Shown: positions 42,976-58,947 of the stretch, piece after piece
How positions within the stretch are numbered: position 1 is the stretch's first letter
Layout of the letters: each line of letters begins with the position of its first letter
Program-made: the position numbers and the translations under genes
Source of the DNA: Leifsonia sp. Leaf264
GTDB lineage: Bacteria; Actinomycetota; Actinomycetes; Actinomycetales; Microbacteriaceae
NCBI RefSeq assembly: GCF_001422325.1
Contig: NZ_LMMR01000006.1
Span: 434,001 to 498,000 of the forward strand
Length of the DNA stretch: 64,000 bases
Direction: 5' to 3'
Notes under the pieces: model-generated
What the model was told of the DNA's origin: nothing
Seen by the model: only the letters and a program-made list of their open reading frames with translations
Database searches by the model: none

Positions 42976-42998
42976 GTCCGCCACAGAAGCGTGCGAAG

Positions 42999-44447
42999 CT
43001 ACCGAGCCCTCCACGGAACACGCCGATCGACCAGCACCAGCACCAGCAGGGCCACGCCCAGCCCGACGACGACGCCGGCCATGCCGTGGAGTCCGGCATC
43101 CGTCGCCCGTTCCGGGAAGGCGAAGCCGATGATCGCCGAGGCCACGATCGCCCCCAGGTAGGTCGAGGTGCGGAGGAGCCCCGAGGCGACGGCGATGTCG
43201 GATGCCGGCGCCTGGTCGTACAGGGCGGCCTGATTGCTCACGCCGGTGAGGCCGGTGACGGCGCCGAACAGCAGGCTGAGAGCCACGAGCAGCACCACCG
43301 AGGTGTCGCCGCTCACCATCGACAGGGCGACGCCGCCCAGGGTCACGGCGACGGCGCTGCCGATCAGCGGCCCACGCACGAGAGCGCGACGCGAGACGAG
43401 CGCCGCCGCGACGGCGCCGACGAGGGTCATGGGCAGCATGACGAGTCCACTGACGCTGGCCGCGAGGCCGCGCCCCTCCTCGAGCCACTGCACGTAGCCG
43501 TAGAGCACCATGTACATCGCCGTCTGCGTGAGTGCCTGGCGACCGTAGGTGCGCACGAGAGGTCCGTTGCGGCGCAGCATCCGCACGTCGATGAACGGAT
43601 GCCGGGCCCGACGCTCCCACAGGATGAGCCCCGAGACAGCCGTCACGACGAGCGCGAGCAGCCACCAGTCGGGCTGCCTGATGCCCTGGAGAAACAGGAT
43701 GAGTCCCACGATGGCGGCCGCGAACAGGGCGAGTCCGGCCGGGTCGAGCGCGCTCAGCAGCTCTCGACCGCCGTCCCGGCGGCGCGGTGCGTCGGCGGGG
43801 ATCCAGAGCAGTGTCATGACGATGCCGATGACACCGAGCGGGATGTTGATGGCGAACACCGCGCGCCAGTCCCAGAGTCCGACGAGCACTCCGCCGAGGG
43901 GCAGACCGAGCGCTGCGGTCACCTGGGCGGCGATCGACATGGTTCCGAGCACGGCGCCGGGAATGCCGAGCCCGAGTCCGTCAGCGCGCTGGCGGATCAA
44001 CGCCATCGCCGTCGGATAGCCGGCGGCGGTTCCGATGCCGATGAGCACCCGCGAGACCAGCAGCCATCCGAAGCTCGGGGCGAAGGCGCCGACGAACCCG
44101 GCGACCACCACGATCGCCATGCCGGCGATGAACACCCGACGCGGCCCGAACTGCGTCGCCAGCTTGCCCATCGTCGGCTGGGCAACGGCACTGGCGACGT
44201 AGACCGCGGCGACGAGCGTCGCCGTCTGTCCGGCGCTGACCCCGAACGCGAGACCGATGGCCACCAGGGAGGTGGCGATGATCGAGCTGTTGATCGGGTT
44301 GAGAGCGGCACCCCACATCAACGGCGCGACGAATCGGGCCGGGAAGGCCTTCCGGGGTGCGACGGATGCCGCGGGCTGCACCGCCGGCACAGCGCCGGTA
44401 CCGACGCCGGAGTTCACGGCGTCGCCGGGTTCGAGGCGGTCGGTCAC
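42999..44447 (-). CDS. MFS transporter, DHA2-like
   Basis: This 482-residue protein has about 14 membrane helices, motif A 'GKLATQFGPRRVFIAG', and 'RVLIGIGTAAGYPTAMALIR', 'ALGLPLGGVLVGLWDWRAVF'. An N-terminal region of about 35 residues is Pro/Ala/Val-rich. GTG start overlaps the stop of the isochorismatase-like gene (GTGA), so it is translationally coupled to it. The MarR-hydrolase-MFS order suggests an efflux or detoxification unit whose substrate the hydrolase also acts on or modifies. Confidence 0.88.
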   Translation of the reverse strand: MTDRLEPGDAVNSGVGTGAVPAVQPAASVAPRKAFPARFVAPLMWGAALNPINSSIIATSLVAIGLAFGVSAGQTATLVAAVYVASAVAQPTMGKLATQFGPRRVFIAGMAIVVVAGFVGAFAPSFGWLLVSRVLIGIGTAAGYPTAMALIRQRADGLGLGIPGAVLGTMSIAAQVTAALGLPLGGVLVGLWDWRAVFAINIPLGVIGIVMTLLWIPADAPRRRDGGRELLSALDPAGLALFAAAIVGLILFLQGIRQPDWWLLALVVTAVSGLILWERRARHPFIDVRMLRRNGPLVRTYGRQALTQTAMYMVLYGYVQWLEEGRGLAASVSGLVMLPMTLVGAVAAALVSRRALVRGPLIGSAVAVTLGGVALSMVSGDTSVVLLVALSLLFGAVTGLTGVSNQAALYDQAPASDIAVASGLLRTSTYLGAIVASAIIGFAFPERATDAGLHGMAGVVVGLGVALLVLVLVDRRVPWRAR

Positions 44448-45061
44448 CGCACCTCGACGTCAGCGGCCACCGGTGCGGTTGCTGCGCGCAGCAGCGCCAG
44501 CACCTCGGCCGTCGTCCCGGTCTCACCGAGGGCCGGGAAGATGTTCTCGACCGCGTTCGCGTGGACGGCGGCATCCGAGTCGGTCATCGCGTCGGTCGCC
44601 AGCACCACGTTGTAGCCGTGCTCGAAGGCCGCCCGCGCCGTGGTCTCGACGCCCTTGCTGGTCGAGATGCCGGCGAACACGATCTGCGTGACGCCGAGCT
44701 GCTGCAACTGCTCATGCAGCGTGGTCTCGTGGAAGGCACCCCAGGTGCGCTTGACGACCCTGATTCCCTCGCCCTCCAGCTCGGGCACCAGGTCGGCCCA
44801 GTCGGCGGGACGGACCGGTGCCGCCTGTCCGGAGGCGACGGATGCCGCAGCCAGGGCGAGCGATCGCTCGCTGCGACCGGGCGCTCCCCCGGTCACAGTG
44901 ACGAGCACGACGGGGAGGTCGGCGGCACGGAAGGCGTCGGCGAGGGCGGCGGCACGGCCGATGACGGTGGAGATGTCGTGGACCACGGGCAGGGCCGTGA
45001 TGCCGTTCTGCAGGTCGATGACGACGAGGGCGGGCCGGGGATCGAGCGGGGTGATGGGCAT
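44444..45061 (-). CDS. isochorismatase-like hydrolase lacking the nucleophilic Cys
   Basis: This 205-residue isochorismatase-fold protein keeps Asp16 ('VVIDLQNG') and Lys104 ('VVKRTWGAF'). The position of the catalytic Cys in amidohydrolase members ('TNxCVExTAR') is Gly137 here ('ISTSKGVETTAR'). Cys-less members exist, such as YecD-like proteins and isochorismatases that use Asp chemistry, so it may act on vinyl ethers or be non-catalytic; amidase chemistry is unlikely. It is coupled to the downstream MFS gene by a GTGA overlap and lies 45 nt after marR, so all three should be co-regulated. Confidence 0.85.
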   Translation of the reverse strand: MPITPLDPRPALVVIDLQNGITALPVVHDISTVIGRAAALADAFRAADLPVVLVTVTGGAPGRSERSLALAAASVASGQAAPVRPADWADLVPELEGEGIRVVKRTWGAFHETTLHEQLQQLGVTQIVFAGISTSKGVETTARAAFEHGYNVVLATDAMTDSDAAVHANAVENIFPALGETGTTAEVLALLRAATAPVAADVEVR

Positions 45062-45106
45062 GGGGGTCTTTCCGGGGTTCGGGGACGGGACGGGGTCAGG
45101 ACGGGG

Positions 45107-45574
45107 TCAGCGGCTGAAGTCGGGATCGAGCAGTCGGTCGAGGAGGAGCACGGCCTCGGCGAGGCGCGATTGCTCGGCGGCGGTCAGGCGCTCGTCGAGC
45201 CGACGAGCGAGCCAGCCGCGCTTCGCGTCCCGGCCCTCGAGGAGTTGGCGCTGACCGTTCTCCGTGAGGAAGACGACGCTCGCTCGTCCGTCGGCGGGAT
45301 CGGGCCTGCGGGCGACGTAGCCGGCCTTCTCGAGCGGAGCGAGAGCCGCGGCCATCGACTGCGGGCGCATCTCCTCGCCGCGGGCGAGCTCCGACGTCGT
45401 GGCCGGGCCGACGGAGTACAGCCGACGCACGATGTTCCCCTGCGTCGTCGAGAACTCCTGCACACCGGACTCCGCGCGCAGGCGCCGGTTGAGGCGGCTC
45501 ACCGTGGAGGGGAGGGCGGCGGCGAGTGCTGCGAGCTCCGGGGCTATCGCGGCGGGGGCGGCATCCGAGGTCAT
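45107..45574 (-). CDS. MarR-family regulator
   Basis: This 155-residue protein has the MarR winged helix ('SVGPATTSELARGEEMRPQSMAAALAPLE', then the wing 'RPDPADGRASVVFLTENGQ') flanked by dimerisation helices. It heads a three-gene operon with the isochorismatase-like protein and the MFS transporter and probably represses it until a small aromatic ligand binds. A candidate operator overlaps its promoter at 45582-45600. Confidence 0.9.
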   Translation of the reverse strand: MTSDAAPAAIAPELAALAAALPSTVSRLNRRLRAESGVQEFSTTQGNIVRRLYSVGPATTSELARGEEMRPQSMAAALAPLEKAGYVARRPDPADGRASVVFLTENGQRQLLEGRDAKRGWLARRLDERLTAAEQSRLAEAVLLLDRLLDPDFSR

Positions 45575-45581
45575 GAATCCA

Positions 45582-45600
45582 CTGTACCTCCGATATACAG
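45582..45600. promoter_or_regulatory. MarR operator candidate
   Basis: CTGTA (45582-45586) and TACAG (45596-45600), an inverted repeat around the likely -10 (TGTATA, minus strand) and the ribosome site of marR. Weak but well placed. Confidence 0.4.
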
Positions 45601-45623
45601 ATTACCTGCACAGTTTTCCTGAA

Positions 45624-45652
45624 GAACCTCCGGAACTTCACGCAGGAGGTTC
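45624..45652. repeat. hairpin upstream of marR
   Basis: GAACCTCC (45624-45631) and GGAGGTTC (45645-45652), an 8-bp stem. It may be part of a regulatory site or a roadblock between marR and the large operon. Confidence 0.4.
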
Positions 45653-45746
45653 CTTCGATCTCGACGCCTCTTCGTCGTTCCGTCGGCGAGTTGCCCGATC
45701 GAGCCAGACCGGGGCCTGCCCCTAGAAGCCCGCCCGGGAGCGGGTC

Positions 45747-45815
45747 TATGATCGGCAGCAGATCAGTTGTCAGCTCCCGCCCCTACGCGCCAGTTGGCTG
45801 CATCCCGAACAACTG
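45747..45815 (+). promoter_or_regulatory. candidate promoter and repeats upstream of the giant operon
   Basis: TATGAT (45747-45752) is the best -10-like hexamer in the gene-free 45575-45996 stretch. CAGTTGT (45764-45770), CAGTTGG (45791-45797) and inverted ACAACTG (45809-45815) follow, giving a repeat set suited to a regulator. The implied leader would be nearly 240 nt. Confidence 0.35.
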
Positions 45816-45996
45816 AATTCTCGCGATGTCCGCTGTGTTCCGGGCATCCTCCGCCCGTGCGCCGAGCCGTCACCCCGCTCGATCCGCACGCCCGGAGCCG
45901 AATCGTCCGCAGAGTTGCGGACGCATGCACGCACCGAACCGGACGCCCACGGCAGGCATGCTGCCGACATCCGTCCGAACCGCACAGTGGGACACG

Positions 45997-48900
45997 ATGA
46001 CCGACATCGGAACCGGATTCCTCAACGGGATCGAAGCCTTCGCCAATTCACGCCTCGGCGAGATGAGCGGCACCTCCTTCAAGGACACGGTGCCGTTCCT
46101 CGAGTCGATCGTCACCTTCGGCGCCGTCGGCGACGTGAAGCCGACCTTCGAGAAGCTGAAGGCCGACATCAAGGCCGCCGTCGCCCTGGTCGAACCCATC
46201 GCCAAGGCGATCAAGAAGCAGACCGACCTGATCGCCAAGATGGTGAAGGAGTCGGCCGACGACATCGACAAGGACGACTTCAACGCCGATACAGCGGCCC
46301 GCGTCGCCGTGCGCATCGGCATGGCCCTCGCCGCCATGGACGAGGCGTTCAACATCGTCGCCAAGGAGCTCGCCAAGAAGGCCGACGGCACTGTCGACGA
46401 GGCCATCCGCTCCGGCCTGATGGACTTCTGGAACCCGTGGGCGCAGCCGTTCAAGGACCTGGGGGCCGGTTCGGGCAAGCTGCTCGACAGCTTCGGGACG
46501 ACGGTACTCGGCGTCTCGAACCTCACCAAGAAGCTCGGCGACGTGCTCGTGCTCGACCGCACCGGTGGCAAGTTCATCCTGGCCGCCAAGCTCGTGAACC
46601 TCGGACCGGTCACCCTCGGCCTGATGACTCTCGACAAGGTCTCCTTCGAGGCCTTCCTGCAGTTCAGCGACCGCGAGATCGCGAACCCGACCGCCGAGGA
46701 GAAGACGAGCCTGCTCGAACGGGACGGCAAGTGGTTCATCGGCGACGTCGTCATCCTGGGCTTCAGGATGCAGACCATGCTCGAGCCCGGACTCACCAAG
46801 GACCCGCTGCTCTCCAAGGTCATGCCGGGCTCGGCGGAACCGCAGACCACGACCCTGACCACCATCTCGGTCGACACCGGCCAGGGCGTCTACCTCGGCG
46901 ACGGCCGCGGCAACGAACGCGCCGTCCTGCCCGTGCGCTTCTCGTTCCCGGGCGTCGAACTGCGCGAGGTGGCCTTCGGACTGCGCCGGAACGAGGCCCG
47001 CGACGTCACCGGATTCGAACTCACGACGTCCATCGCCGCCAAGCTCGGCGACGTCATCGGCCTGCAGATCGTCGGCACCGGCTTCATCGTCGCGCTGAAC
47101 GGCGACGTCGAGCAGCAGGCCGTCTTCGACATCCCGGTCTCCCCGCGCTGGCCCGATGCGATCGGCCTGCGGGTCAAGGCCGGCCCCGTCACCGGTGGCG
47201 GCTTCATCCAGCGCGTCGAGCGCACCTACAAGGTCGACGGACAGGACGTGAAGCGCGTCGAGTTCGGCGGGGTGGTGCAACTGCAGATCCTCAAGTTCGG
47301 ACTCTCGGCCATCGTCATCCTCTCGCCGGATCCGTTCTCCCTGGTGCTCGTCATCGGCGTGCGGTTCCCGGTGGCCATCGACCTCAGCATGGGATTCACG
47401 CTCAACGGCATCGGCGGCATCCTGGCCCTCAACCGAGGCCTCGACCTGGAGGCCCTGCGCTCGGGCATGAAGGAGCACATCCTCGACAAGATGCTGTTCC
47501 CCGACAACCCCGTCGCCGAGGCGCCCAAGCTGCTCGACAAGGTCGCGAGTGTGTTCCCGCCGAAGGACGGCGGCTTCGTGTTCGGGCCCATCGTCGAGCT
47601 CGGCTGGGGCTCGCAGGCGAAGTTCGTCGAGATGAAGCTCGGCGTCGTCCTGGCACTGCCCGACCCGATGATCGTCGTGCTCGGTTCCCTGCGGGTCCGG
47701 ATCCCGACGAAGGAGGCGCCGATCACCGACATCCGTGCCGACGTCTTCATCGCGATCACGCCCGACTACCTGCTGCTGTTCGCGAGCATGCGCGACTCCA
47801 CCATCGCCGGCATCAAGATCTCGGGCGATCTCGGCCTCTACATCCAGTGGTCGGGCAGCGGCGCGTTCGAGTTCTCGGTCGGCGGCTTCCATCCCGAGTA
47901 CGAGAAGCTCACCGGCGGCAAGCCGAAACTCGGCGACATGGACCGCGTCACCATCGACCTGTCGCCGTCGAAGGCCATCAGCTTCGTCATCAAGGCCTAC
48001 TTCGCCATCACGGCGGGCTCGGTCATGCTCGGCGTGGAGGGCAAGCTGAACGCCGACTTCGCCGTCATCGCGGCCAGGGCCTGGCTCACCCTCGACATGA
48101 TCTTCATCTGGGCGCCGCGCTTCGCCTTCAAGATCAGCATCGAGGTGGGCGTCGAGGTCGACCTGTTCGGCTGCACGATCTGCTCGATCGTCTTCCGCGG
48201 CTCGCTCGAGGGCACCAAGCCGTTCAAGCTCCAGGGCCACATCAAGGTCGACGTCTGGTTCCTCCCCACCTTCGACGAGGACCTGGGCCCGGTCGAGTGG
48301 GGCGAGAAGCCGGCTCCGATCCTCGCCAAGGTCGACGCGCTGGCGATCGCGGCCCGCGCCATGAACGAGGACGACGCCTGGAAGGTGCAGTTGCCAGACC
48401 ACGCGGCGCAGCTCGTCACCCTGGCCGAGGTCGACGACATCGACGGACGCATCGCGCATCCCCTGGCCGGCGTCGAGGTGTCGCAGACCCAGGTGCCGTT
48501 CGGAGTCAAGATCAGCCGCATCGGCTCCGCCCCGGTGCAGGCCGACATGGTGACCATCGGCACTCCGACGTCGACCCCGGACTCGGGCCTGGTCGGAGCC
48601 GTGAGCGAGCTCAAGACCGCCTTCGCACCGGGCCAGTTCTTCGAGCTCGAGGGCGAGGGCCTGCTCGCCCGCTCCGGCTTCGAGGACATGACCGGCGGAT
48701 GCCGCATCGCAGCGGCCACCACCCCGAAGGTCGGCACCGCGACGCCGGCGACTGTCGCGTACCAGACCTACGTGCGCAACCCCGACGAGCCCGACTCCCT
48801 GATCGAGTTCGCGGGCATCTTCGCCACCTACGCCACGTCCTACGCCACCAAGACGAACGTGGGTCGGGCCGTCGCCGACGTCGGCAATCCGTACCTGCAG

Positions 48901-49086
48901 CCGACACCACCGAACGCCGGGGTGACGGTCTCCGACAAGGGCACCTCGACGATCGCGGATGCCGCCACCGGCGGCGCGCTGCTCGCCGGCCTCGGGGAGC
49001 TCACGGCGACGCAGGCCGCCCTCGTGACTGCCGCCGTCAACACCGAGAGCGCCGCATCGGCGACGCGCCTGATCGTGAGGGGATGA
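45997..49086 (+). CDS. DUF6603-like giant protein, first gene of a four-gene module
   Basis: This 1029-residue protein starts at ATG 45997; upstream in-frame starts lie in Arg/Pro-rich shadow sequence. The N-terminal 180 residues are helical and Lys/Ala-rich ('FEKLKADIKAAVALVEPIAK'). From about 200 the protein is beta-rich. The region about 464-770 matches my recollection of DUF6603: 'GFTLNGIGGILALNRGLDLE', 'MLFPDNPVAEAPKLLDKVAS', 'FVFGPIVELGWGS', 'VLGSLRVRIPTKEAPI', 'SVGGFHPEY'. A Cys pair 'GCTIC' lies at about 725. No signal peptide or enzyme motif is seen. A large beta-structure with a helical leader suggests a structural component. It starts an operon with the next three genes (gap to the next, 4 nt). 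Confidence 0.8.
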   Translation: MTDIGTGFLNGIEAFANSRLGEMSGTSFKDTVPFLESIVTFGAVGDVKPTFEKLKADIKAAVALVEPIAKAIKKQTDLIAKMVKESADDIDKDDFNADTAARVAVRIGMALAAMDEAFNIVAKELAKKADGTVDEAIRSGLMDFWNPWAQPFKDLGAGSGKLLDSFGTTVLGVSNLTKKLGDVLVLDRTGGKFILAAKLVNLGPVTLGLMTLDKVSFEAFLQFSDREIANPTAEEKTSLLERDGKWFIGDVVILGFRMQTMLEPGLTKDPLLSKVMPGSAEPQTTTLTTISVDTGQGVYLGDGRGNERAVLPVRFSFPGVELREVAFGLRRNEARDVTGFELTTSIAAKLGDVIGLQIVGTGFIVALNGDVEQQAVFDIPVSPRWPDAIGLRVKAGPVTGGGFIQRVERTYKVDGQDVKRVEFGGVVQLQILKFGLSAIVILSPDPFSLVLVIGVRFPVAIDLSMGFTLNGIGGILALNRGLDLEALRSGMKEHILDKMLFPDNPVAEAPKLLDKVASVFPPKDGGFVFGPIVELGWGSQAKFVEMKLGVVLALPDPMIVVLGSLRVRIPTKEAPITDIRADVFIAITPDYLLLFASMRDSTIAGIKISGDLGLYIQWSGSGAFEFSVGGFHPEYEKLTGGKPKLGDMDRVTIDLSPSKAISFVIKAYFAITAGSVMLGVEGKLNADFAVIAARAWLTLDMIFIWAPRFAFKISIEVGVEVDLFGCTICSIVFRGSLEGTKPFKLQGHIKVDVWFLPTFDEDLGPVEWGEKPAPILAKVDALAIAARAMNEDDAWKVQLPDHAAQLVTLAEVDDIDGRIAHPLAGVEVSQTQVPFGVKISRIGSAPVQADMVTIGTPTSTPDSGLVGAVSELKTAFAPGQFFELEGEGLLARSGFEDMTGGCRIAAATTPKVGTATPATVAYQTYVRNPDEPDSLIEFAGIFATYATSYATKTNVGRAVADVGNPYLQPTPPNAGVTVSDKGTSTIADAATGGALLAGLGELTATQAALVTAAVNTESAASATRLIVRG

Positions 49087-49090
49087 CCTG

Positions 49091-52000
49091 ATGGCCGACC
49101 TTGATGCCATCGCCGCGAGCGTCGTCGCGCCGCTGTCGAACACCGCCACCCGCGTGGTGCAGGACGCCTTCTCGCTGGCCCTCGCGAAGGAGGACGAGTT
49201 CGACGAGAGCGCCGTGGCCATCGAATCGCTCGAGTTCGCCTCGACGGCCGTCGGCGGCCTGGCCGCTGCGGCGAGCGCGCCGCCCGCCGGAAGCGTGCGC
49301 ACGACATCGCGGGTGGAGGTTCCGCTCGCCGACAGCGCCGGTGGGACCGCATCCGCCGGCCTCTCCGTGACCCTGTACGGTCCGGGCGACGTGCGCGGTA
49401 TCGATCCGGCCCAGATCGTGCGACGGTTCCCGGCGCCGGGAACCCAGACCGCCGAGGAGACCGTGCTCGCGCACATCGAGTTCGACAGGCCGGAGCTGCC
49501 GTGGGCGTTCAGCGCCGCACCCCAGGCGGCGGTCATGCGACCGTGGCTCACCCTCGTCGTACTGGAGCGGTCGACCATCACCCGCGAGCCGGCGACGAGC
49601 GCGCTGCTGCCGGTGTTCCAGGTGCCGCTCGCGCAGCTGCCCACCCTCACCCGCGCCGACCTCTGGGCGCACGCGCAGGCTCCGGCCACGACGACAGGGC
49701 AGGACCTGAGCGCGCGCCTGTCCCCGGCCCATGCCCCCGTCAACCTGTCGCGGGTGATCTCGCCGCGCATCCTGAAGCAGGACACCGACTACGTCGCGGC
49801 CCTGGTTCCGACGACGGATGCGGGGGTGCGCGGCGGTCTCGGCCTCACCGGCGGCTCCCTCGATCCGGCCTGGACGAGCTCCTCGCCCGACCCCGTGCGC
49901 CTGCCCGTGTACGACAGCTGGGAGTTCCGCACCGGACCCGACGGCGACTTCCGCTCGCTCGCGATCAAGCTGCAGGGCGTGGCGGCCCCGTATGAGGTCG
50001 GCCGCAAGTTCATCGACACCTCCCAGCCAGGCAAGCCGTTGCGTGCCCTCGCCGCCGACGAGGTCGGCCGCAAGCAGGTGCTGCGCTGCGCGCTGTTCTC
50101 GCCGAGCGCACCGAAGACCCCCGAGCAGCAGGTGGCCGAGACGGCGGTCTGGCCCGACGCCATGATCGACGAGCTCCGTGCCGAACTCGATCTCCCGGCG
50201 GCGATCGAGGGCACCGAGGAGCAGACCGACGGCGTACCCGACCTGCCCATCATCGGCCCGCGCATCTACGCGAAACTGCACCGCGGCAGTGCTGTCATTG
50301 AGGGCTCCGACTGGTTCGCCGAGCTCAACCTCGCCCCGGTGAAGCGCATCGTCGGCGGACTCGGCACCCGGGTGGTGCAACGCGACCAGGAGCGACTGAT
50401 GCAGTCGGCCTGGGCGCAGCTCGGAGAGGTGGAGGCGGCGAATCGGGCCATCCGCCTCGCCCAGCTCGCCGAGCTGCTCGCCACCAGGCTGTTCACCCGC
50501 ATCGGCGAACTGCAGACCGGGCACCTGCTCCAGGTCGCGGCCCCTCTCGCCACCCGCATCTCCGTCAACGCCGGCAGCACGCTGTTCTCCGACGTCACCC
50601 TGAGCGCCACGCCCGTCGCCGCGACGCGAGGCGCATTCCGCCGGGTCACCCGCCCAGCAGGACCGCTGATCCGGCGAACGGATGCGGCCTCCCAGCAACG
50701 GGCGGGCGACATCGTGGGCACCGAGGCGACCATGCGCGACTTCACCAGGGTGTACGAGAACCCGGAGGGCATCGGCCGTCTCACCGCCGATGTCGTCGCC
50801 CATCTCGACCTGCAGTTGGTGAGCGCGGCCATCGGCACCCCCGTCGATTCCATCGCGGGCGTGCTGAAGGAGGCCAACGCCCGCGTCGAACGGGAGGGCG
50901 GATTCGCCACCTACCTCACCGAGCCGAACCGGTGGAAGGCCGCCGACGCGTCGTTCGACCTGGGCGCGGCTGTGGCGACCCGGTGGAGCGAGAAGCTGCT
51001 GCGCCCGTCGTCGGTTCCGGCCGTCGAGGCCATCCGCGCCCAACGCGTCGGGCCGCTCGCCGCCGAGCTGTCGCTGTCGAAGACGACGAGCGCGAGCCCA
51101 TTGCGCGAGCGGCTCAAGGGCACGGCCGTGAAGCTCAACGACAGGGTGCTGGTCGACCTCGGCGTCGTCGACGTGCGACCCGACGGCCCGGTGATCGACG
51201 GGCCGGTGATCGACGGACCCATCATCCGCGGCCCGGTCGACGGCCCAGTCATCGACGGCCCCATCATCCGCGGGCCGATCGTCGACGGCCCCGTCATCCG
51301 CGGCCCCGTCGTCGCTCCCCTCAACCCGCGCATCCCGCTCACCCGCCGCTCCCCGATCGGCGGAGCCGTCGGTCGCCTGCCGCAGGGCGGAGCCGGCCCC
51401 GCAGTCCGCGTTCCCGTCGACGGCGGTGCCCTGAGAGGCGGCGCGGGAGGCGTGGCGGTCGGCGGTGGCGCTCTCGGTGCCCGCCGCATCCCCGTCGAAG
51501 GGCACGTGCTGGTGGGCGGCAGAGGCCTGCGCGTCATCGACGTGCAGAACCTCAAGAAGCTCGGCGACACCAGGGACAGCGCTGAACTCGACGCCGGCCT
51601 GGCGCAGTTCGCCGAGCTGGCCGAGGTGAAGCTGACGCCGACCCTCGACCGCATCGACCAGTTGCCCTTCGACGTGCTGCGGGCCGAGATGACCTCGCTC
51701 ATCGACCCCGGCGCCCTGCTCACCATCGACACCGTCCCGCACCGCGACGCCCTGGCCGTGGCATCCGCCGCCATCACGACGGCCATAGATCCGCGGACCA
51801 CCGTGCGCGCGTCCCTCGCGGGCAGACTGCACCTCAGCGCCGGGCTCGCCGACCGCTGGTTCGCCCAGCCGCGCATAGCGCCGATCATGGCGGCGCCGCG
51901 CTTCGACCGCCCGATGTACCGCGCCCTCGAGGAGTACGACCGCGAATGGCTGGTTCCCGGGCTCGGCCTGCTGCCGGCGAACGACTTCGTCACGGTGCTC

Positions 52001-52615
52001 TCGACCAATCGGGAGTTCATGGCCGCGTTCTTCGTCGGGCTCAGCGACGAGATGGGCCGCGAACTGCTGTGGCGCGGCTACCCCACCGACCAGCGCGGCA
52101 CCTACTTCCACCGGTTCTGGAATCCGCTGAAGGACGAGCTGGGAAAGCCGATCCACCTGTTCCCGAAGAAGAAGCTGGCCGACCAGATCTCCCTCGGCGG
52201 AGGCAGCAAGGACTGCGCTGTCATCGTGGTCAAGAGCGAACTCGTGCGCCGCTTCCCCGACCTCATCATCCAGGCCGTGAAGAACCAGGGCACTGTGCGC
52301 GACCCGGTGTTCGAGAAGGTCGACTCTCCGCAGAAGACCGCGCCCATCCTGTTCTCCGAGGTGCTCGACCCCGACATCGCCCTCGTCGGCGTCGACATCT
52401 CGGTCGACGAACTCGACGGCGATGAGTGGTGGATCACCATCGCGGAGCATCCGTCGGCCACCAGATTCCAGCGTCCGGCCGACGCCCAGCTGCCTGCGGG
52501 CCAGACGCAGCTCACCGACACAGCCCAGCACTCAGCCGCCTACGCCGAGAAGCACCTGCACCGCCCGGTGCGGGTGGCCTTCCAGGCGACGGACCTCATC
52601 GTGAGAGAGGCGTAG
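49091..52615 (+). CDS. giant protein of unknown function, module gene 2
   Basis: This 1174-residue protein has a ribosome site AGGGGAT. I can name no domain. The middle (about 697-745) is a Gly-Pro-Val-Ile repeat of units like 'DGPVIDGPII' and 'RGPV'. C-terminal hallmarks are 'NREFMAAFFVGLSDEMGREL' at about 974-993, directly followed by 'LWRGYPTDQRGTYFHRFW', then 'LVRRFPDLIIQAV' and 'WWITIAEHPSATRF' (about 1112). From memory, very similar motifs occur in large uncharacterised proteins of other bacteria, so the family is broad. No signal peptide or membrane segment. Codon use and GC match the host, so it is long resident. Coupled to genes 1 and 3 by gaps of 4 and 3 nt. Confidence 0.8.
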   Translation: MADLDAIAASVVAPLSNTATRVVQDAFSLALAKEDEFDESAVAIESLEFASTAVGGLAAAASAPPAGSVRTTSRVEVPLADSAGGTASAGLSVTLYGPGDVRGIDPAQIVRRFPAPGTQTAEETVLAHIEFDRPELPWAFSAAPQAAVMRPWLTLVVLERSTITREPATSALLPVFQVPLAQLPTLTRADLWAHAQAPATTTGQDLSARLSPAHAPVNLSRVISPRILKQDTDYVAALVPTTDAGVRGGLGLTGGSLDPAWTSSSPDPVRLPVYDSWEFRTGPDGDFRSLAIKLQGVAAPYEVGRKFIDTSQPGKPLRALAADEVGRKQVLRCALFSPSAPKTPEQQVAETAVWPDAMIDELRAELDLPAAIEGTEEQTDGVPDLPIIGPRIYAKLHRGSAVIEGSDWFAELNLAPVKRIVGGLGTRVVQRDQERLMQSAWAQLGEVEAANRAIRLAQLAELLATRLFTRIGELQTGHLLQVAAPLATRISVNAGSTLFSDVTLSATPVAATRGAFRRVTRPAGPLIRRTDAASQQRAGDIVGTEATMRDFTRVYENPEGIGRLTADVVAHLDLQLVSAAIGTPVDSIAGVLKEANARVEREGGFATYLTEPNRWKAADASFDLGAAVATRWSEKLLRPSSVPAVEAIRAQRVGPLAAELSLSKTTSASPLRERLKGTAVKLNDRVLVDLGVVDVRPDGPVIDGPVIDGPIIRGPVDGPVIDGPIIRGPIVDGPVIRGPVVAPLNPRIPLTRRSPIGGAVGRLPQGGAGPAVRVPVDGGALRGGAGGVAVGGGALGARRIPVEGHVLVGGRGLRVIDVQNLKKLGDTRDSAELDAGLAQFAELAEVKLTPTLDRIDQLPFDVLRAEMTSLIDPGALLTIDTVPHRDALAVASAAITTAIDPRTTVRASLAGRLHLSAGLADRWFAQPRIAPIMAAPRFDRPMYRALEEYDREWLVPGLGLLPANDFVTVLSTNREFMAAFFVGLSDEMGRELLWRGYPTDQRGTYFHRFWNPLKDELGKPIHLFPKKKLADQISLGGGSKDCAVIVVKSELVRRFPDLIIQAVKNQGTVRDPVFEKVDSPQKTAPILFSEVLDPDIALVGVDISVDELDGDEWWITIAEHPSATRFQRPADAQLPAGQTQLTDTAQHSAAYAEKHLHRPVRVAFQATDLIVREA

Positions 52616-52618
52616 ACC

Positions 52619-55600
52619 ATGCCCGTCGAGACCCCCGACGAACTCGCCGCCGTGCGCGAGCGCATCGCCACACTCACCGAGAAGCGACGCACCCTCCTCC
52701 GCCGGCCGCCCGGCCGCGGCCTGCGCGGCGACATCCTCGACCTCGATGACGACCTGCGCGAGGTCATCGGCGGCCTGCGCGACAGGCTCGACCCTTGCGA
52801 CGCGTCGCCCGAGGTACCACTGGTGCTCCTGCCCGTGCGCATCGAGAGCAAGCTCGCCCCCGGTACGTCGACGCTGCGCGTGCGCATCACGCCCGACGAG
52901 GCTCACATCGACAGCCTGCTTCGATCGGTGACTGAAGCCGAGGTCGCCGCCGGTCAGGTGTACTGGCACGCCGTCTGGGTCGACGCGCCGGATGCCGCTG
53001 CCGACGCCGTCGCCGACGCCGCGGCGTGGACGACCCTCACCGAGGCGGTCGGCGCCCGCCGCGCCGGCTGGGTGGCCGAGGTGACCACCCCCACGAATCT
53101 CGCCACCCGTGGACAGGGCGACCCTGCCTTCCCCGCAACACCGGAGGAGGTGGCTCACGGCACGGTTGCGCGCTGCCTACCCGACCAGTTCGTGGTGCGG
53201 GTGTTCCCGAGCGGCGGGGCCCCGATCACAGTGACGGGCTCGCCCGTCGCGCCCGACGTGCCGCTCTCGCCGATAGCCTTCGGCGACGACGAACTGAGCG
53301 AGGTGGCCGGCCTGAACGTGCCCGTCGGCTCGGAGTGGACGATCGATTTCGAGGCGGCGAAGACGGCCGGCCTGGGGGTCGAGGTTCCGCTGCCCGCCGG
53401 CACGACTCTCCTCGACAGGATCGTGGTGGTCGGCACCCGCAACTCGGTGTCGGAGGAGGCGAACGCCGCCGACTTCGTCGAACTCCTCACCAGTCACAGG
53501 TTCAGCGACGGCGTCTCCCTCCTCGCCGCCGGAACGGCGACGAACAACGCCGATGCCGAGCGCTCCCCCTACCGCCCGGCCGCAAGCGCCGGCGCACCGT
53601 CCGTCGAGCCGCGGACGCCGTCACCGGATGCCGCCCGGCTCGCGGCGGCGCTCGGCCTCGACGCGGCATCCGTCGAGCACCTCCTCGATCCGGCAGCGCC
53701 GGTCTCGACGCAGGACCAGGCCGAGGCTGCCGCCAACACGGCGCTCTGGTTCGCCACCTGGGAGCCGGTGCTCGAGCGCCTCGACGACCTCGACATCCCG
53801 GCCGTCACGCCCGGGAGCATCGAGTCGGCGAGGCGCCTGCACCGCGACCACGTGCGCGGAGCCGGCCCGGCCCCGGCGCTGCGCATCGGTGCGCAGCCGT
53901 ACGGCGTGCTCCCCGTCGCAGACCTCGACGCCTGGAGCCCGCGCTCCGGCGAGATCACCGCGCAGCTCGTGCCGCTCATCCGGCGCACCCTGGCCCGCTG
54001 GGTGAGCCGCTCACCGGTCGTGCCGCACGTGCGTCCCGGCGACCAGCTCAGCGACCAGGACCTGCTCGACATGCTGGGAACCAGCCCGGTGGCGACCGGG
54101 GTGCGAGCCAGGCCTGCCGTCGACGGTCCGCAGCTGGCCTCCTTCGCCGCGGCGACTGGAGCCGATGCCGCCCAGTTGGTGGCCGAGGCGCAGCTGCGTA
54201 CGGCCATGCTGGCGCAGTTCTCCGTCGACGCCGCCAAGGTGCTGCAGACGCCGGCGCCGCACGACGACTCCCGCACCATCGGACTGCCCCTCGTCTCCGA
54301 TCGGGATGCCGAGGTGGTCGCCCAGATCCTCGCCGGCACCACCCCCAAGGTCGACAGCGTGCTGCAGGCTCTGCTCGACATCGCCTGGGACAGCGCCAAA
54401 CGGCTGCGGTTCCGTGCAGCGCCGCAGGAGTTCGTGGGGCCGCTGCTCGACTTCGTTCAGCTCGACCCCGACATCGCCCAGATCGTGAAGTCGGCGGCAT
54501 CCGCCGATGCCGCCGTCGACGACACGGCGCCGTCGCGGTTCTTCGCCGCCGCCGAGAAGGTGGCCGCCGTGCAGCACTTCGACGGCCAGCCCGCCGAGCG
54601 CGTGAGCATAGCCGCGATCGAGCCCGTGGCCGAGGCGCGCACCTCACTCGCCCAGGTGGCCCTCGACCTCGGCGACACGGCCCAGGCGAAGTGGCTGGGC
54701 AGCAGCGCCATCACCGAACTGCTCTACGCCTTCGGCGTCGGCGGCGAGGTGCGCGCCGCCATGATCGCCCTCGCCGACGCCCCGCTCGACGAGAGGCGCA
54801 TCGCCGTCGCCCACGCCCTCGACATCGCCTCGCACAGGGTCGACGCCTGGGCCACGGGGCTGGCGAGCGCACGACGTGCCACGCTGGCGGCATCCGCCCC
54901 CGTCGGAATGACCATCGGCGCCTTCGGCTACGTCGAGCAGATCCGCCTGGGGGCGAGTCGCCGCGACCCCGACGGCTGGATCCACGCCCCGAGCAGCTCG
55001 CACGCCGTCGCCGCCGGAGTGCTCGCGAGCGCCCACACCTCCAACATCGGTGCGAAGCCCGGCTCGCAGCCTTTCGCGATCGACCTGTCGAGCCGCCGCG
55101 GCGTCGAGCTGCGTCGCGTGCTCGAGGGCGTGCAGGCCGGCCAGTCGATCGGAGCGCTCCTCGGGTACCAGATCGAACGCGGGCTGGCCGGAACGTCGGC
55201 CGCCCGCTTCCAGCTCAGCCTGCGGCAGATCGCCCCGGCGGCCACGGACCAGCTCGGCAACGACGAGGCTCAGGAGGTCGCGGCGGCCCGCGTCGCAGCG
55301 GCCGATGTCGTCGACGGAGCCGAACTGCTGCGGCGGTTCCCGCTCGACTCCCTCGCCGTCGCGAACCCGCCGTTGCGTGCCCGGCTCTCCCGCAAGCCGG
55401 ACAACGCCTTCATCGAGACCTGGGATGCCGTGTCGAACGCGGAATGGGACCGGCTGGTGGCCGCCATGCGCGGTGCTGCCGCCACCCTCGACGCCGTGTC
55501 GGATGCACTGCTCAGCGAGAGCGTGCTGCAGTACTCCTCGGGAAACCCACAGCGCGCCTCGGCCGCGATGGACGCCATGGCCAGCGGTGCCGCCGTCGAC

Positions 55601-57175
55601 CCCGACCTCGGCGTGCTGAACGTGCGTCAGGCCGGCCGCGTGCTCACCCACGGCGTGTTCGCCGCCATCCCGGTGGGCGCTCCCGGCTGGTCGACCACCC
55701 GCCCGCGTGCCATCGCCGAGCCCAGGCTCGAGGCCTGGGCGGCACGGCGGCTCGGAGATCCGGCCGACATCACCGTGACCGGGGCCGCAGGCGGGCACAC
55801 CCTCGCCGAGGCGGGCTGGGCCGCCCTCGACCTCGTCTTCACCGACGACCCGGCGTCGCTCGACCGCGAGCTTCGCGCTGCGATCCCGGCGATGGGCGAC
55901 GCACCGCTTGCCGATGAGCTGCTGCGCGCGGCCGCCCTCGCCGGCAGCCTGCGCTCCCTCGCCGCCGGCGGAACACCCCTCGGGCCCGACGCCCTCGTGC
56001 GCACCGGAGTCGCGCCCGAGCGCAGCCTCGACACCGACGAGCTTCTCGACAGGGTCGACAGGGTTCTCGACGCCCTCTCCGATGTCCTCGGTGCCGGCCA
56101 GGCCGTCATCGCCGCCGTCGATCCCGACACCCTCGCCGTCGAGGAAGCCGACGTCGCCGCCGTCGTCGCCGCGGTGCGCGGGCTCACCGCCTTCGGCGTT
56201 CCCCTGGTTCCGGATGCCGCGATCCCGTCGAACGTCGCATGGGCCGTCGGCGCCTGGCAGGCGGCATCGGCTCGGCTCGGCCAGGCCCGGGCCACCCTCG
56301 CCGCCCTGCGCGACCCCGCTCGCGAACCGGCAGCGACCACGGGCGAGATCGTCGACGCCTGCCGGGCCGTGGCCGAGGGGATCCTGGGCGACGGCTTCCT
56401 GCTGCTCCCGCTGCTGGCGAAGCCGGCCGGCACCGACTCGTTCCACGACGCCATCACGCGACCGGCCATGAAGAAGCAACCGGCGCGAGCGCACATCAAC
56501 GCCTTCGTGCGCGACCACGCGAGCGTGCAGGCCGGCGTCGGGCGCCTCGCCGAGGCGCAACTGCTCGGCGGCGTGCTCGGCGCCCCGATCCCGCTGCGCG
56601 TGGTGCAGCTCACCGAGCACGATGAGGAGACCGGCGACCCGGCCGCCGGCACCGAGCGCTGGCTGGCGGGGCCGTTGCCCGACGACATCCCGTGGCCTGC
56701 CGCATCCGCCAGCCATCTCCTCGTCGAACTGCTGGGCGATGACGACGACTTCTCGGGCCCGTTCGCCGGGCTGGCCATCGACGGCTGGGCCGAGACCCTG
56801 CCGTTCCAGCCCGACCAACGGGCGTTCGATCCCGCAGCCCCCGACAATCCGCTGCGCGCGGCGCGAGCCACGACAGGCCTGGCCGTGCACGCCAACCAGG
56901 CCTCGGCCCGAGCGCCGCAGGTGCTGCTGTCGGCCGTGTCGCCCGACGGGAAGCGCTGGACGACGGACTCCGTGGTGGCGACGGTGCTCGAGGCGGTCGA
57001 CCTGGCCAAGGCCCGGCTCGTCACCTACGAGCACACGCCGGGCGATGCCGCCATCCTGCCCGCCATCTACGTGGCGAGTCCGTGGCTGCAGATCCGCAAG
57101 GGGCTCGAGTTCAGCGAGCTCGCAACGGTCAAGTGGGCAGGGGACGCCATCCCGTTCCTCTCGGAGGTGAAGTGA
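52619..57175 (+). CDS. giant protein of unknown function, module gene 3 (1518 aa)
   Basis: This is the largest gene in the window. The N-terminal 60 residues are helical and charged (Arg/Glu/Leu heptads). Then 'VPLVLLPVRIESKL' and 'TLRVRITPDEAHIDSL' (about 66-100), 'LRIGAQPYGVLPVADLDAW' (about 420-438), 'FGYVEQIRLG' and 'GWIHAPSSSHAVA' (about 770-795), and 'QSIGALLGYQIERGLA' (about 842-857). I recall the same series of motifs in other unannotated giant proteins. Much of the remainder is helical and Ala-rich. No catalytic signature, signal peptide or membrane helix is visible. It overlaps gene 4 by 1 nt (TGATG). Confidence 0.8.
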   Translation: MPVETPDELAAVRERIATLTEKRRTLLRRPPGRGLRGDILDLDDDLREVIGGLRDRLDPCDASPEVPLVLLPVRIESKLAPGTSTLRVRITPDEAHIDSLLRSVTEAEVAAGQVYWHAVWVDAPDAAADAVADAAAWTTLTEAVGARRAGWVAEVTTPTNLATRGQGDPAFPATPEEVAHGTVARCLPDQFVVRVFPSGGAPITVTGSPVAPDVPLSPIAFGDDELSEVAGLNVPVGSEWTIDFEAAKTAGLGVEVPLPAGTTLLDRIVVVGTRNSVSEEANAADFVELLTSHRFSDGVSLLAAGTATNNADAERSPYRPAASAGAPSVEPRTPSPDAARLAAALGLDAASVEHLLDPAAPVSTQDQAEAAANTALWFATWEPVLERLDDLDIPAVTPGSIESARRLHRDHVRGAGPAPALRIGAQPYGVLPVADLDAWSPRSGEITAQLVPLIRRTLARWVSRSPVVPHVRPGDQLSDQDLLDMLGTSPVATGVRARPAVDGPQLASFAAATGADAAQLVAEAQLRTAMLAQFSVDAAKVLQTPAPHDDSRTIGLPLVSDRDAEVVAQILAGTTPKVDSVLQALLDIAWDSAKRLRFRAAPQEFVGPLLDFVQLDPDIAQIVKSAASADAAVDDTAPSRFFAAAEKVAAVQHFDGQPAERVSIAAIEPVAEARTSLAQVALDLGDTAQAKWLGSSAITELLYAFGVGGEVRAAMIALADAPLDERRIAVAHALDIASHRVDAWATGLASARRATLAASAPVGMTIGAFGYVEQIRLGASRRDPDGWIHAPSSSHAVAAGVLASAHTSNIGAKPGSQPFAIDLSSRRGVELRRVLEGVQAGQSIGALLGYQIERGLAGTSAARFQLSLRQIAPAATDQLGNDEAQEVAAARVAAADVVDGAELLRRFPLDSLAVANPPLRARLSRKPDNAFIETWDAVSNAEWDRLVAAMRGAAATLDAVSDALLSESVLQYSSGNPQRASAAMDAMASGAAVDPDLGVLNVRQAGRVLTHGVFAAIPVGAPGWSTTRPRAIAEPRLEAWAARRLGDPADITVTGAAGGHTLAEAGWAALDLVFTDDPASLDRELRAAIPAMGDAPLADELLRAAALAGSLRSLAAGGTPLGPDALVRTGVAPERSLDTDELLDRVDRVLDALSDVLGAGQAVIAAVDPDTLAVEEADVAAVVAAVRGLTAFGVPLVPDAAIPSNVAWAVGAWQAASARLGQARATLAALRDPAREPAATTGEIVDACRAVAEGILGDGFLLLPLLAKPAGTDSFHDAITRPAMKKQPARAHINAFVRDHASVQAGVGRLAEAQLLGGVLGAPIPLRVVQLTEHDEETGDPAAGTERWLAGPLPDDIPWPAASASHLLVELLGDDDDFSGPFAGLAIDGWAETLPFQPDQRAFDPAAPDNPLRAARATTGLAVHANQASARAPQVLLSAVSPDGKRWTTDSVVATVLEAVDLAKARLVTYEHTPGDAAILPAIYVASPWLQIRKGLEFSELATVKWAGDAIPFLSEVK

Positions 57176-58947
57176 TGGCCGTCAACATCCCCATCGACAT
57201 GATGGTCAGCGCTGTGACGAATCCGAAGCTGGAGGCGATCCTCACGCTGCTGCAGGTGGCCGATCCCCCGGCGATGGTGCGGCTCGAGCCCGACTCGATC
57301 ACCGGCGACCCGGCGCCGGGCGCCGAGGCGCGCATCGCCGACGCCGCCTGGATGCTCGGGCGGCAGTGGCAGTTCGGCGAACTCACCGGCGAGGACGCGG
57401 GGTCGGTGGTCTCGGTGCACGTTGCATCCAGCGCGTTGCCGATCACGGCATGGGCCCCGCTGTCGGGCTCCTCCATCGACCTGGCCGGCGCCGACTGGCG
57501 GCCGTGGCGCGACGGCGCGCTGCTCGAGGAACTGGTGCAGGACGTGCCGGAGCTCGCGTTCGGCGACGGGCTGCGGCAACGCGCCGAGGCCGGCGCCCAG
57601 CTGGTGGACCTGCTGACGGATGCCGGCGAGAAGACGCTGGCGCGTTCGCTGGCGGGGCTGCATCCGCTCGCCCTCGACGACGATCCGAACGATCCGCTCG
57701 GCCTCAATGATCCGCAGGCCGCCCGCCTGTTCGCCGTGCTGGGTGGAAAGGTTCCCGACGGCGGCACCCTCGCAACCGAGCTGCGTGCCGGCGACCCGGC
57801 CTGGATCGCTGACGCCGCGGATACAGCGGCCACCCGCGCCGTGATCGTCGAGTGGCTCGACTGGCTCGGCGGGGCGCCGGACTCGGGCGGCGCGTGGTCG
57901 ACCGAGCGTCTCGAGTACAGGTTCGCTCTGCGCTTCGGCGACAAGGCCAACGCTGTCTTCGCGCGCGGCACCCAGTTCGGCTCGGCGTCGGTGCGCTGGA
58001 GCGACCTGGAGTGGGTCGAGGGCGCCAGTGCCGACCTCCCCGACGAGGCGCCGGCCGGAACCCCCGTCACCAGCGAGGCGACCATGCTCGCCACCCCGTT
58101 GCGATACCCGGGCATGCCGGCCGACCGCTACTGGCAGCTCGAGGACGGCGCTGTGGACGTCGGGGCCATCGAGGCGCAGACCAACGACCTCGCCCGTCTG
58201 TGCTTGGCCGAGTTCGCCATGTCGTCGGGCGACGACTGGCTGGCCGTTCCTGTCGACGGCCTCCTCGGGGCCGTGAACCGCGTCGGCGTCGTCACGCTGA
58301 CCGACGACTTCGGCGACGCCGTCACGGTTCCCGAACTGGTCGATCCCGCCTTCACCATGTTCGGTGTCGCCTCGGCCGGAGGGCGGATGCTGCCGGGCAT
58401 CGTGCTGCCCCCTGTGGCCGCTGGGACCATCGTCGGCGAGGCCCTCGAGGACGTGCTGTTCCTCCGCGACGAGATGGCGAACATGGCCTGGGCGATCGAG
58501 AACTCGGTGCAGGGGCGCAGCGGCGACCCGCGGCGGCGTTCCAGCGAGCGACCGCCGGAGCCCGACCCGTGGCCGGAGGGACTCACCCAGGAGGAGAGGG
58601 CGTACAGGCTCCAGTCGCCGGTGCCTGCGCACTGGATCCCGCTGGCGCCCGTGGCCCTGAAGCCGGGGCAGGTGTCGTTGCGCAAGGCGGCGCTGCTGCG
58701 GGACGGCGTTCCCGTGGTGCCGAGCGGCGTCACGCTGCATCCGACGCCGCTGACGTTCCCCGGGGAGGAGCTGCCGCGCGAGGGCGTGCACCTGCGCGCG
58801 GTTCCGGTGCTGGCACGGCGGGCCGACGGTCGCTACGCCAAGTGGGCGGCCTATCGCGTGCGCACAGGACGCGGCGAGGCCTCCAGCCGACTCGCGTGGG
58901 ACTCCGCGTTGTCGTTCACCGACATGACGCATCCGCCGACGGCGTAG
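57175..58947 (+). CDS. protein of unknown function, module gene 4
   Basis: This 590-residue protein has a strong GGAGGTGA ribosome site inside the end of gene 3. Hallmarks are 'LGRQWQFGELTGEDAGS' (61-77), 'VPAHWIPLAPV' (about 482-492), 'ELPREGVHLRAVPV' (about 531-544) and 'GRGEASSRLAWD' (about 564-575). I recall equivalents of these in uncharacterised proteins, found with relatives of gene 3. Trp and acidic residues are frequent; no signal peptide or membrane helix. A proline/arginine-rich disordered link lies near 447-470. It ends the operon, 9 nt from the convergent DUF2207 gene, with no obvious terminator. Confidence 0.8.
   Translation: MAVNIPIDMMVSAVTNPKLEAILTLLQVADPPAMVRLEPDSITGDPAPGAEARIADAAWMLGRQWQFGELTGEDAGSVVSVHVASSALPITAWAPLSGSSIDLAGADWRPWRDGALLEELVQDVPELAFGDGLRQRAEAGAQLVDLLTDAGEKTLARSLAGLHPLALDDDPNDPLGLNDPQAARLFAVLGGKVPDGGTLATELRAGDPAWIADAADTAATRAVIVEWLDWLGGAPDSGGAWSTERLEYRFALRFGDKANAVFARGTQFGSASVRWSDLEWVEGASADLPDEAPAGTPVTSEATMLATPLRYPGMPADRYWQLEDGAVDVGAIEAQTNDLARLCLAEFAMSSGDDWLAVPVDGLLGAVNRVGVVTLTDDFGDAVTVPELVDPAFTMFGVASAGGRMLPGIVLPPVAAGTIVGEALEDVLFLRDEMANMAWAIENSVQGRSGDPRRRSSERPPEPDPWPEGLTQEERAYRLQSPVPAHWIPLAPVALKPGQVSLRKAALLRDGVPVVPSGVTLHPTPLTFPGEELPREGVHLRAVPVLARRADGRYAKWAAYRVRTGRGEASSRLAWDSALSFTDMTHPPTA

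Follow-up and report, generated by a model that had tools for sequence, protein, structure and literature searches.

The window analysed here is a stretch of 64,000 nucleotides (nt) from Leifsonia sp. Leaf264 (contig NZ_LMMR01000006.1, positions 434,001 to 498,000, forward strand), in which four large genes, termed g1 to g4, follow one another on one strand (Table 1). They form a 13-kilobase (kb) unit that recurs in one gene order in bacteria and archaea, and in other lineages the position directly upstream of g1 is a slot for enzymes of changing class. Only 4 nt separate g1 from g2 and 3 nt separate g2 from g3, while g3 and g4 overlap by 1 nt; an earlier note, made from the sequence alone, had given exactly these distances and gene lengths. 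The frame of g1 is open upstream to position 45826, and its start codon is a choice; all 1029 residues are aligned in several relatives. No sigma-70-like promoter was found in the stretch upstream of g1 (45575..45996).

DUF6603 (PF20248), which the earlier note had recognised in g1, is matched with an E value of 2.3e-98 and 330 bits against a curated Pfam cut-off of 27. For g2, g3 and g4 there was no Pfam, NCBIfam or PADLOC match at E<=1, a PHROGs search gave one chance-level match each (E 0.019 to 0.3), and against PDB sequences the single-sequence searches returned nothing at E<=1 and the profile searches chance matches only (best E 0.23). Membership of g1-g4 in a known enzyme or toxin family was rejected on the same libraries (Pfam, NCBIfam, PHROGs, PADLOC and PDB sequences). 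The description of g2-g4 as families without a name thus holds for the libraries searched, and the profile searches resolved none of them to a known unrelated enzyme. ATPase and nuclease motifs had been reported as absent, and no Pfam NTPase or nuclease domain is present in g1-g4.

Composition is host-like, as had been claimed, with a GC content at third codon positions of 0.90-0.95 in g1-g4 against 0.88-0.91 in six neighbouring genes; total GC is lower in g1 (0.67). By a crude hydropathy test none of the four proteins has an N-terminal hydrophobic segment, in agreement with the reported lack of signal peptides. The 19-residue hydrophobic peak of g1 (from residue 437) falls within predicted strands, and that of g3 is similar (1.95, from residue 1179). 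Purifying selection acts on all four genes: compared with Leifsonia flava (L040), their ratios of non-synonymous to synonymous substitution (dN/dS) are 0.07-0.14, and in the comparison with Arthrobacter sp. SO3 (L044) they are 0.08-0.17. Since dN/dS is 0.07-0.17 per gene and synteny is conserved, the four-gene observation is more than chance.

Table 1. Features of the four-gene unit and its upstream border in the window (aa, amino acids)
Feature	Position	Strand	Remarks
Stretch directly upstream of g1	45575..45996	+	End of the enzyme gene in other lineages; none here
g1, 1029 aa, DUF6603 protein	45997..49086	+	Predicted helical N-terminus, then large beta-sheet
g1 residues 1-182, mostly helical by prediction	45997..46542	+	AlphaFold2 model
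g1 residues 193-768, long predicted strands, 20/28 amphipathic	46573..48300	+	AlphaFold2 model and profile test
Pfam DUF6603 match, g1 residues 316-885	46942..48651	+
g2, 1174 aa, unnamed family	49091..52615	+
g2 linker with GPVIDGP-like repeats, residues ~690-760	51158..51370	+	Causes false matches in other genomes
g2 hallmark motif around MGRELLWRGYPTDQRGTYF	52049..52108	+
g3, 1518 aa, unnamed family	52619..57175	+
g3 residues 843-949, weak similarity to part of g4	55145..55465	+	hhalign E 4.3e-4, probability 34%
g4, 590 aa, unnamed family, without match among solved structures	57175..58947	+
g4 hallmark motif RQWQFGELTGEDAGS	57361..57405	+
g4 residues 134-230, weak similarity to part of g3	57574..57864	+	hhalign E 4.3e-4, probability 34%

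Gene order and distribution

An alignment of the g2 C-terminus was scanned against one genome per species (84,980 species), giving 525 relatives, of which 80 loci (L040-L119) were kept. The genes lie in the order g1-g2-g3-g4 on one strand in 60 of these; 11 loci are without g4, seven without g1 and two without both, and at 18 of the 20 incomplete loci no more than 0.45 kb of contig remains beyond the last match in the direction of the missing gene. Because the scan used g2, only the presence of g1, g3 and g4 is informative. The proposal of one conserved unit is borne out by this fixed order and strand, and the hallmark motifs put forward to define the families do retrieve relatives, for g2 as WR[GE][YF]PTDxRG. 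The nearest possible start codon lies within 20 nt in 49/71, 61/80 and 55/67 gene pairs. Gene order does not imply equal dosage, which the earlier note had read into it.

NCBI taxonomy, readable for 75 of the 80 loci, spans ten phyla; most loci are in Actinomycetota (24), Pseudomonadota (17), Bacteroidota (17) and Myxococcota (six), and one is in a haloarchaeon. In an independent search of plasmids with g4, 14 records were recovered and 12 fetched, 11 of which hold all four families; plasmids with a complete module include those of Rhizobium, Paraburkholderia, Gemmatirosa and four haloarchaea (one being the same record as L111). Homologues that are never found together had been named as evidence against a single module, and the opposite is seen in 60/80 loci and 11/12 plasmids. 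A Streptomyces anthocyanicus plasmid carries g4 alone (L033, 17332-19137) with IS5 transposase genes a few kb upstream, and is perhaps a remnant. An unverified record named Bacteriophage sp. (L032, MT835531.1) also contains the module, with g1 cut at the record end.

A class-wide search with g4 matched 10 of 246 genomes, the window's included; six of the nine others have all four genes and three are cut by contig ends. Across 396 genomes of the window's phylum, again with the window's included, DUF6603 was found in 12, g4 in 10 and both in eight, where about 0.3 would be expected if they were independent; three g4 candidates were scored per genome, and g4 may be undercounted. The two genomes with g4 only have contigs of 3.2 and 4.9 kb. 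The four with DUF6603 only comprise one 3.4-kb contig with g1-g2 and three loci of a divergent arrangement, termed class II (L171, 7468-18675; L172, 3-13434; L173, 3250-12387). Class II modules are without g3 or g4 and consist of a distant DUF6603 protein, a g2-like protein (E 6.9e-12 in L172; relatives in L171 and L173 found by BLAST) and a third protein common to all three loci. Directly upstream of the class II module in L171 is an open reading frame (ORF) with a sub-threshold match to the metallo-beta-lactamase (MBL) fold (E 0.0047).

Several variants of the module were seen. In L020 (8141-14494) g3 and g4 are fused in one 2118-aa frame. In Rhizobium (L027, 10104-17992) and Halobellus (L037, 3196-16678) g2 and g3 are each broken into at least two adjacent ORFs, a sign that their domains may be separable. 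Two GH25 lysozyme genes and a glucosaminidase gene (L027, 29782-35071) lie 10-15 kb after the Rhizobium module; these are possible lysis genes, and their recurrence was not seen. One genome has two DUF6603 genes about 23 kb apart (G1123:C13, 34762-36303 and 58493-60169). Accessory domains were sought in 23 of the 42 long variants of the module proteins, and lamin-tail (LTD) domains were found three times, Kelch three times, and PA14, F5/8C and FG-GAP once each; all are domain types common on surface or secreted proteins.

An enzyme slot upstream of g1

Among loci with at least 1.5 kb of upstream sequence, 51 of 64 have a same-strand ORF of at least 250 aa whose end is no further than 150 nt from a possible start of g1; in 13 of the 51 the two frames overlap by 4 nt. 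Iterative clustering placed 38 of these 51 ORFs in three groups, namely PhoD-like (14), serine peptidases (14) and M64 peptidases (10). The serine peptidase cluster contains two catalytic types, trypsin-like and subtilisin-like (S8), joined by a common tail described below. A Pfam scan of 68 upstream same-strand ORFs, hand-picked from 196, found PhoD 12 times, Peptidase_M64 nine times, S8 four times, and tyrosinase and Trypsin_2 three times each, besides single or paired oxidase (galactose-oxidase-like among the neighbours), MBL and phospholipase D matches; no family occurred more than three times in 62 downstream ORFs picked from 143. The slot, the tail and the amphipathic DUF6603 sheet had no place in the earlier note.

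Of the catalytic motifs, the serine motif is present in 10/10 trypsin-like and 4/4 S8 enzymes and the zinc motif in 8/9 M64 enzymes, while the catalytic histidine patterns, which were devised for this analysis, matched 2/10 trypsin-like and 2/4 S8 enzymes. By crude hydropathy and with uncertain start codons, six of the 68 upstream ORFs score high enough for a possible signal peptide, and two of the six belong to the three main groups. By the same kind of test, at a stricter cut-off, homologues of the module proteins score 0/57 for g4, 0/65 for g2, 0/50 for g3 and 4/59 for g1.

Supported sisters in a tree of g2+g3+g4 differ in their enzyme, L067 having PhoD and L081 M64, and L101 a trypsin-like enzyme and L103 M64. 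Class changes on the tree number six for six M64 rows, five for nine PhoD rows and four for seven serine peptidase rows, and the labels cluster somewhat (10 changes in all against a shuffled mean of 18.9). On this tree, sister modules can thus differ in the class of enzyme at their slot.

A tail shared by different peptidases

When the trypsin-like and S8 group profiles are compared, their last ~120-125 residues align (hhalign E 4.7e-15, probability 98%), even though the two catalytic heads are unrelated. The tail is carried by 10/10 trypsin-like and 2/4 S8 enzymes and occurs as a stand-alone ORF of 141-164 aa in five loci. No tail-like segment was found inside g1-g4 by hhalign.

Whole-genome searches covered 20 of 21 chosen module genomes and found the tail in 11, ten of which had been picked for having it and one, Chitinophaga filiformis (L093), had not. 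Every one of the 19 matches in these 11 genomes is located at the module: 16 are upstream of g1, and three follow closely after g4. The other nine genomes gave no match. In 247 genomes of one class the tail was present in three besides the starting one; two of the three have it beside g1, on one protein that is subtilisin-like by motif and on a tandem trypsin-like pair. Since heads of different catalytic type share the tail and it keeps to the neighbourhood of one operon, it is best read as a putative docking device.

Co-inheritance and possible transfer

Between the four families, pairwise distances correlate with r 0.88-0.94 (Mantel test, 38 rows), compared with a maximum of 0.31 in 500 permutations, and by this measure the four families co-evolve. 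The window was included both here and in the tree (FastTree, 42 rows), and incomplete and over-80%-identical proteins were dropped. The module is present in 3/3 genomes of the window's genus. Within the window's family (398 genomes) there are four true cases of g2; a further four of the eight g2 matches (G094, G356, G521 and G553) were discarded as they align only to residues ~690-766, in the repeat linker.

Between the window and Arthrobacter sp. SO3 the module proteins have 84-91% identity, while RpoB of the same genomes is 74% identical; at the DNA level identity is 83.6-85.2% for the module and 77.6% for rpoB. The region of similarity (45983 to 58947) is interrupted at the g2 linker and does not continue into the flanks. 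The module therefore sits as a block in a distant host, Arthrobacter. Similarity to three Cryobacterium genomes begins about 0.27 kb further upstream than that to Arthrobacter sp. SO3. The Cryobacterium glucosi case is no evidence of transfer, because RpoB is 90% identical.

In Leifsonia flava both flanks of the module are also shared with the window. Genes for MarR, isochorismatase and a major facilitator superfamily protein (about 42977-45710), on the opposite strand upstream of g1, lie in the window between a sigma-factor gene and the module; they are absent in Leifsonia flava, where the sigma-factor gene adjoins the module, and the difference is an insertion or a loss. MBL-fold hydrolases that are 54% identical lie upstream of near-identical modules in Cryobacterium (L042, 1515-2849) and Arthrobacter (L044, 1794-3176). 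Such a hydrolase was rejected as the partner in the window's clade, since neither the window genome nor its two congeners nor the L043 genome has it; in the L041 genome it is located outside the locus examined.

Predicted structures

The AlphaFold2 model of g1 (59 sequences) has a mean predicted local distance difference test score (pLDDT) of 78.7 and a predicted template modelling score (pTM) of 0.56. In the g1 family profile, 20 of the 28 strands of at least six residues have one hydrophobic and one polar face, and the mean face difference is 2.62 against a shuffled mean of 1.18 and maximum of 1.72, on a scale in which W and Y were raised by the author. Foldseek against the PDB gave pilus ushers, a 1111-residue S-layer-type chain, ApoB100 and vitellogenin as best matches (E 2.7e-4 and weaker), followed by porins, with query TM-scores of at most 0.19 among the best 50 rows; against viral models the best matches were an unnamed protein (E 4.2e-6, TM 0.10-0.12) and tail-fibre-like proteins. 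The DUF6603 sheet is predicted to be amphipathic, and only that is concluded about its fold: what bears on a closed barrel or a lipid-lined groove is the amphipathic strands, weak and mixed Foldseek matches and the pTM of 0.56. The g4 model (pLDDT 81.3, pTM 0.77) had no match in the PDB below E 0.24.

Discussion

The reading preferred here, with a probability of about 45%, is that the products of g1-g4 are a conserved chassis of four leaderless proteins, which recruits interchangeable hydrolases and acts outward. The chassis would recruit or carry the hydrolase encoded in the slot beside g1 (once beside g4), joined in several lineages through the common C-terminal tail. The four proteins would form one complex, for which the earlier note had suggested a scaffold, tube or container. 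The tail may dock to this complex, and the amphipathic DUF6603 sheet may contact lipid or membrane. The loaded particle might then leave the producer with no need of a signal peptide, through lysis for instance, and might act outside it by bringing a protease or phosphatase to a target. Behind this proposal stand a unit of fixed order, its co-inheritance, its presence as a block in a distant host, the change of enzyme class, catalytic motifs in nearly all enzymes tested and a locus-bound tail, all shown by genome comparison. An outward-acting particle is suggested because long variants have domains of surface or secreted type, the subunits appear leaderless and the partners hydrolytic. A bolder form, which is doubtful, would be a new delivery machine, neither contractile nor Tc-like and common to bacteria and archaea; with g2-g4 and a DUF6603 sheet that interacts with membranes, it would take an exchangeable enzyme, protease or phosphatase, out of the cell and to or through a target membrane, tail-loaded in some lineages.

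Several points weigh against the recruiting chassis, beginning with the fact that all of its support is genomic. The main weakness is the window's own copy: in its clade (eight tree rows on one side of a branch, labelled 'none/unclear') there is no recognised enzyme at the slot, a tail search of the window genome gave no match, and only the chassis was found, which must work without a tail enzyme or with a partner elsewhere. The alternatives are a partner gene elsewhere and a chassis that performs some function by itself. At the slot, 13 of the 64 loci have no adjacent upstream ORF, 13 of the 51 adjacent ORFs are ungrouped, and some may be open only by chance, as happens where DNA is rich in GC. 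The idea that every enzyme class has the tail was rejected, as PhoD and M64 enzymes are without it and have nothing in common with each other or with the peptidases, and two of the four S8 enzymes lack it too. The third new tail genome, G1146 (2.6 Mb), is an exception, with a trypsin-like tail protein (L208, 13383-14828) and no DUF6603. A complete set of four is not universal: g4 was not found in the 4 kb after g3 in L118, which lacks it, nor in the last 1.1 kb of the contig in L096, which probably does. Lastly, the families listed for the neighbouring ORFs (best 25 of 35 upstream and best 25 of 98 downstream) include no recurrent one for release, lysis or immunity.

The slot is explained nearly as well by an intracellular conflict or anti-phage system, in which g1-g4 would be the constant sensor for an invader, and the linked protease or phosphatase the variable effector that they set loose within the cell. 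A constant module with an exchangeable hydrolase, patchy distribution, plasmid carriage and leaderless proteins speak for it, and known defence systems such as Avs and CBASS couple fixed sensors with varied effectors. Overall it is nevertheless unlikely: a PADLOC scan of these four proteins gave no match, they have no NTPase (STAND included), cyclase or nuclease domain in Pfam, and the tyrosinase and galactose-oxidase-like neighbours and the PA14, F5/8C and LTD inserts fit an extracellular role better. Improbable in turn is a lipid-binding or lipid-carrying particle, with the DUF6603 sheet as a lipid-lined groove or belt, g2-g4 as its coat and the enzymes acting on the contents. The strong amphipathicity of the g1 strands and the weak fold similarity to ApoB100 and vitellogenin agree with it, yet ushers and porins are equally weakly similar at the same low TM-scores, the g1 model reaches a pTM of 0.56, and peptidases and PhoD-like enzymes, as opposed to lipid enzymes, predominate among the linked genes. 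The outer-membrane ushers and porins share with g1 the long amphipathic strands, whereas g1 has no signal peptide and the module is also found in haloarchaea and Gram-positive Actinomycetota. Least probable is that the proteins form no complex and are separate members of one pathway travelling together. In its favour, gene order indicates linked function and not binding, and modules without an identified enzyme exist; against it, tight gene coupling, the g3-g4 fusion and the locus-confined tail are typical of physical partners.

Like the module, extracellular contractile injection systems and tailocins combine large leaderless proteins, mobile operons and exchangeable cargo, whereas g1-g4 have no sheath, tube, baseplate or AAA ATPase domain in Pfam and chance-level PHROGs matches only, and no contractile-system family is present in the flanks among the families listed (best 25 of 35 and best 25 of 98). 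A phage or tailocin origin of g1-g4 was rejected on the Pfam and PHROGs results and on pattern matches in viral contigs that were not confirmed (g4 0/14, g2 0/11). Tc toxin complexes also consist of few giant leaderless proteins and a variable enzymatic part; g1-g4 differ in having no TcA, TcB, TcC, RHS or SpvB domains, DUF6603 being the only Pfam match at E<=1, and the enzymes here are whole separate genes. Bacterial microcompartment and encapsulin shell domains are absent from g1-g4 by Pfam. The one named relationship is that of g1 to DUF6603, a family with no described function that in the genomes examined usually occurs with g2-g4 (8/12), which PF20248 does not name. The open-licence PubMed Central literature gave no paper on DUF6603 or PF20248 and, among the titles listed in wider searches, no description of the four-gene system, and the system appears categorically new in its parts, with a function proposed from the genes alone.

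A 13-kb unit that keeps its order across ten or more phyla, contains three large families unmatched in Pfam and among PDB sequences and has an enzyme slot would be a widespread molecular machine undescribed in the literature searched. The tail provides a direct handle on it, as it predicts partner enzymes. If enzyme delivery is its true function, the unit would add a class to the short list of delivery machines; if it is instead a defence system, it would be one built from unfamiliar parts.

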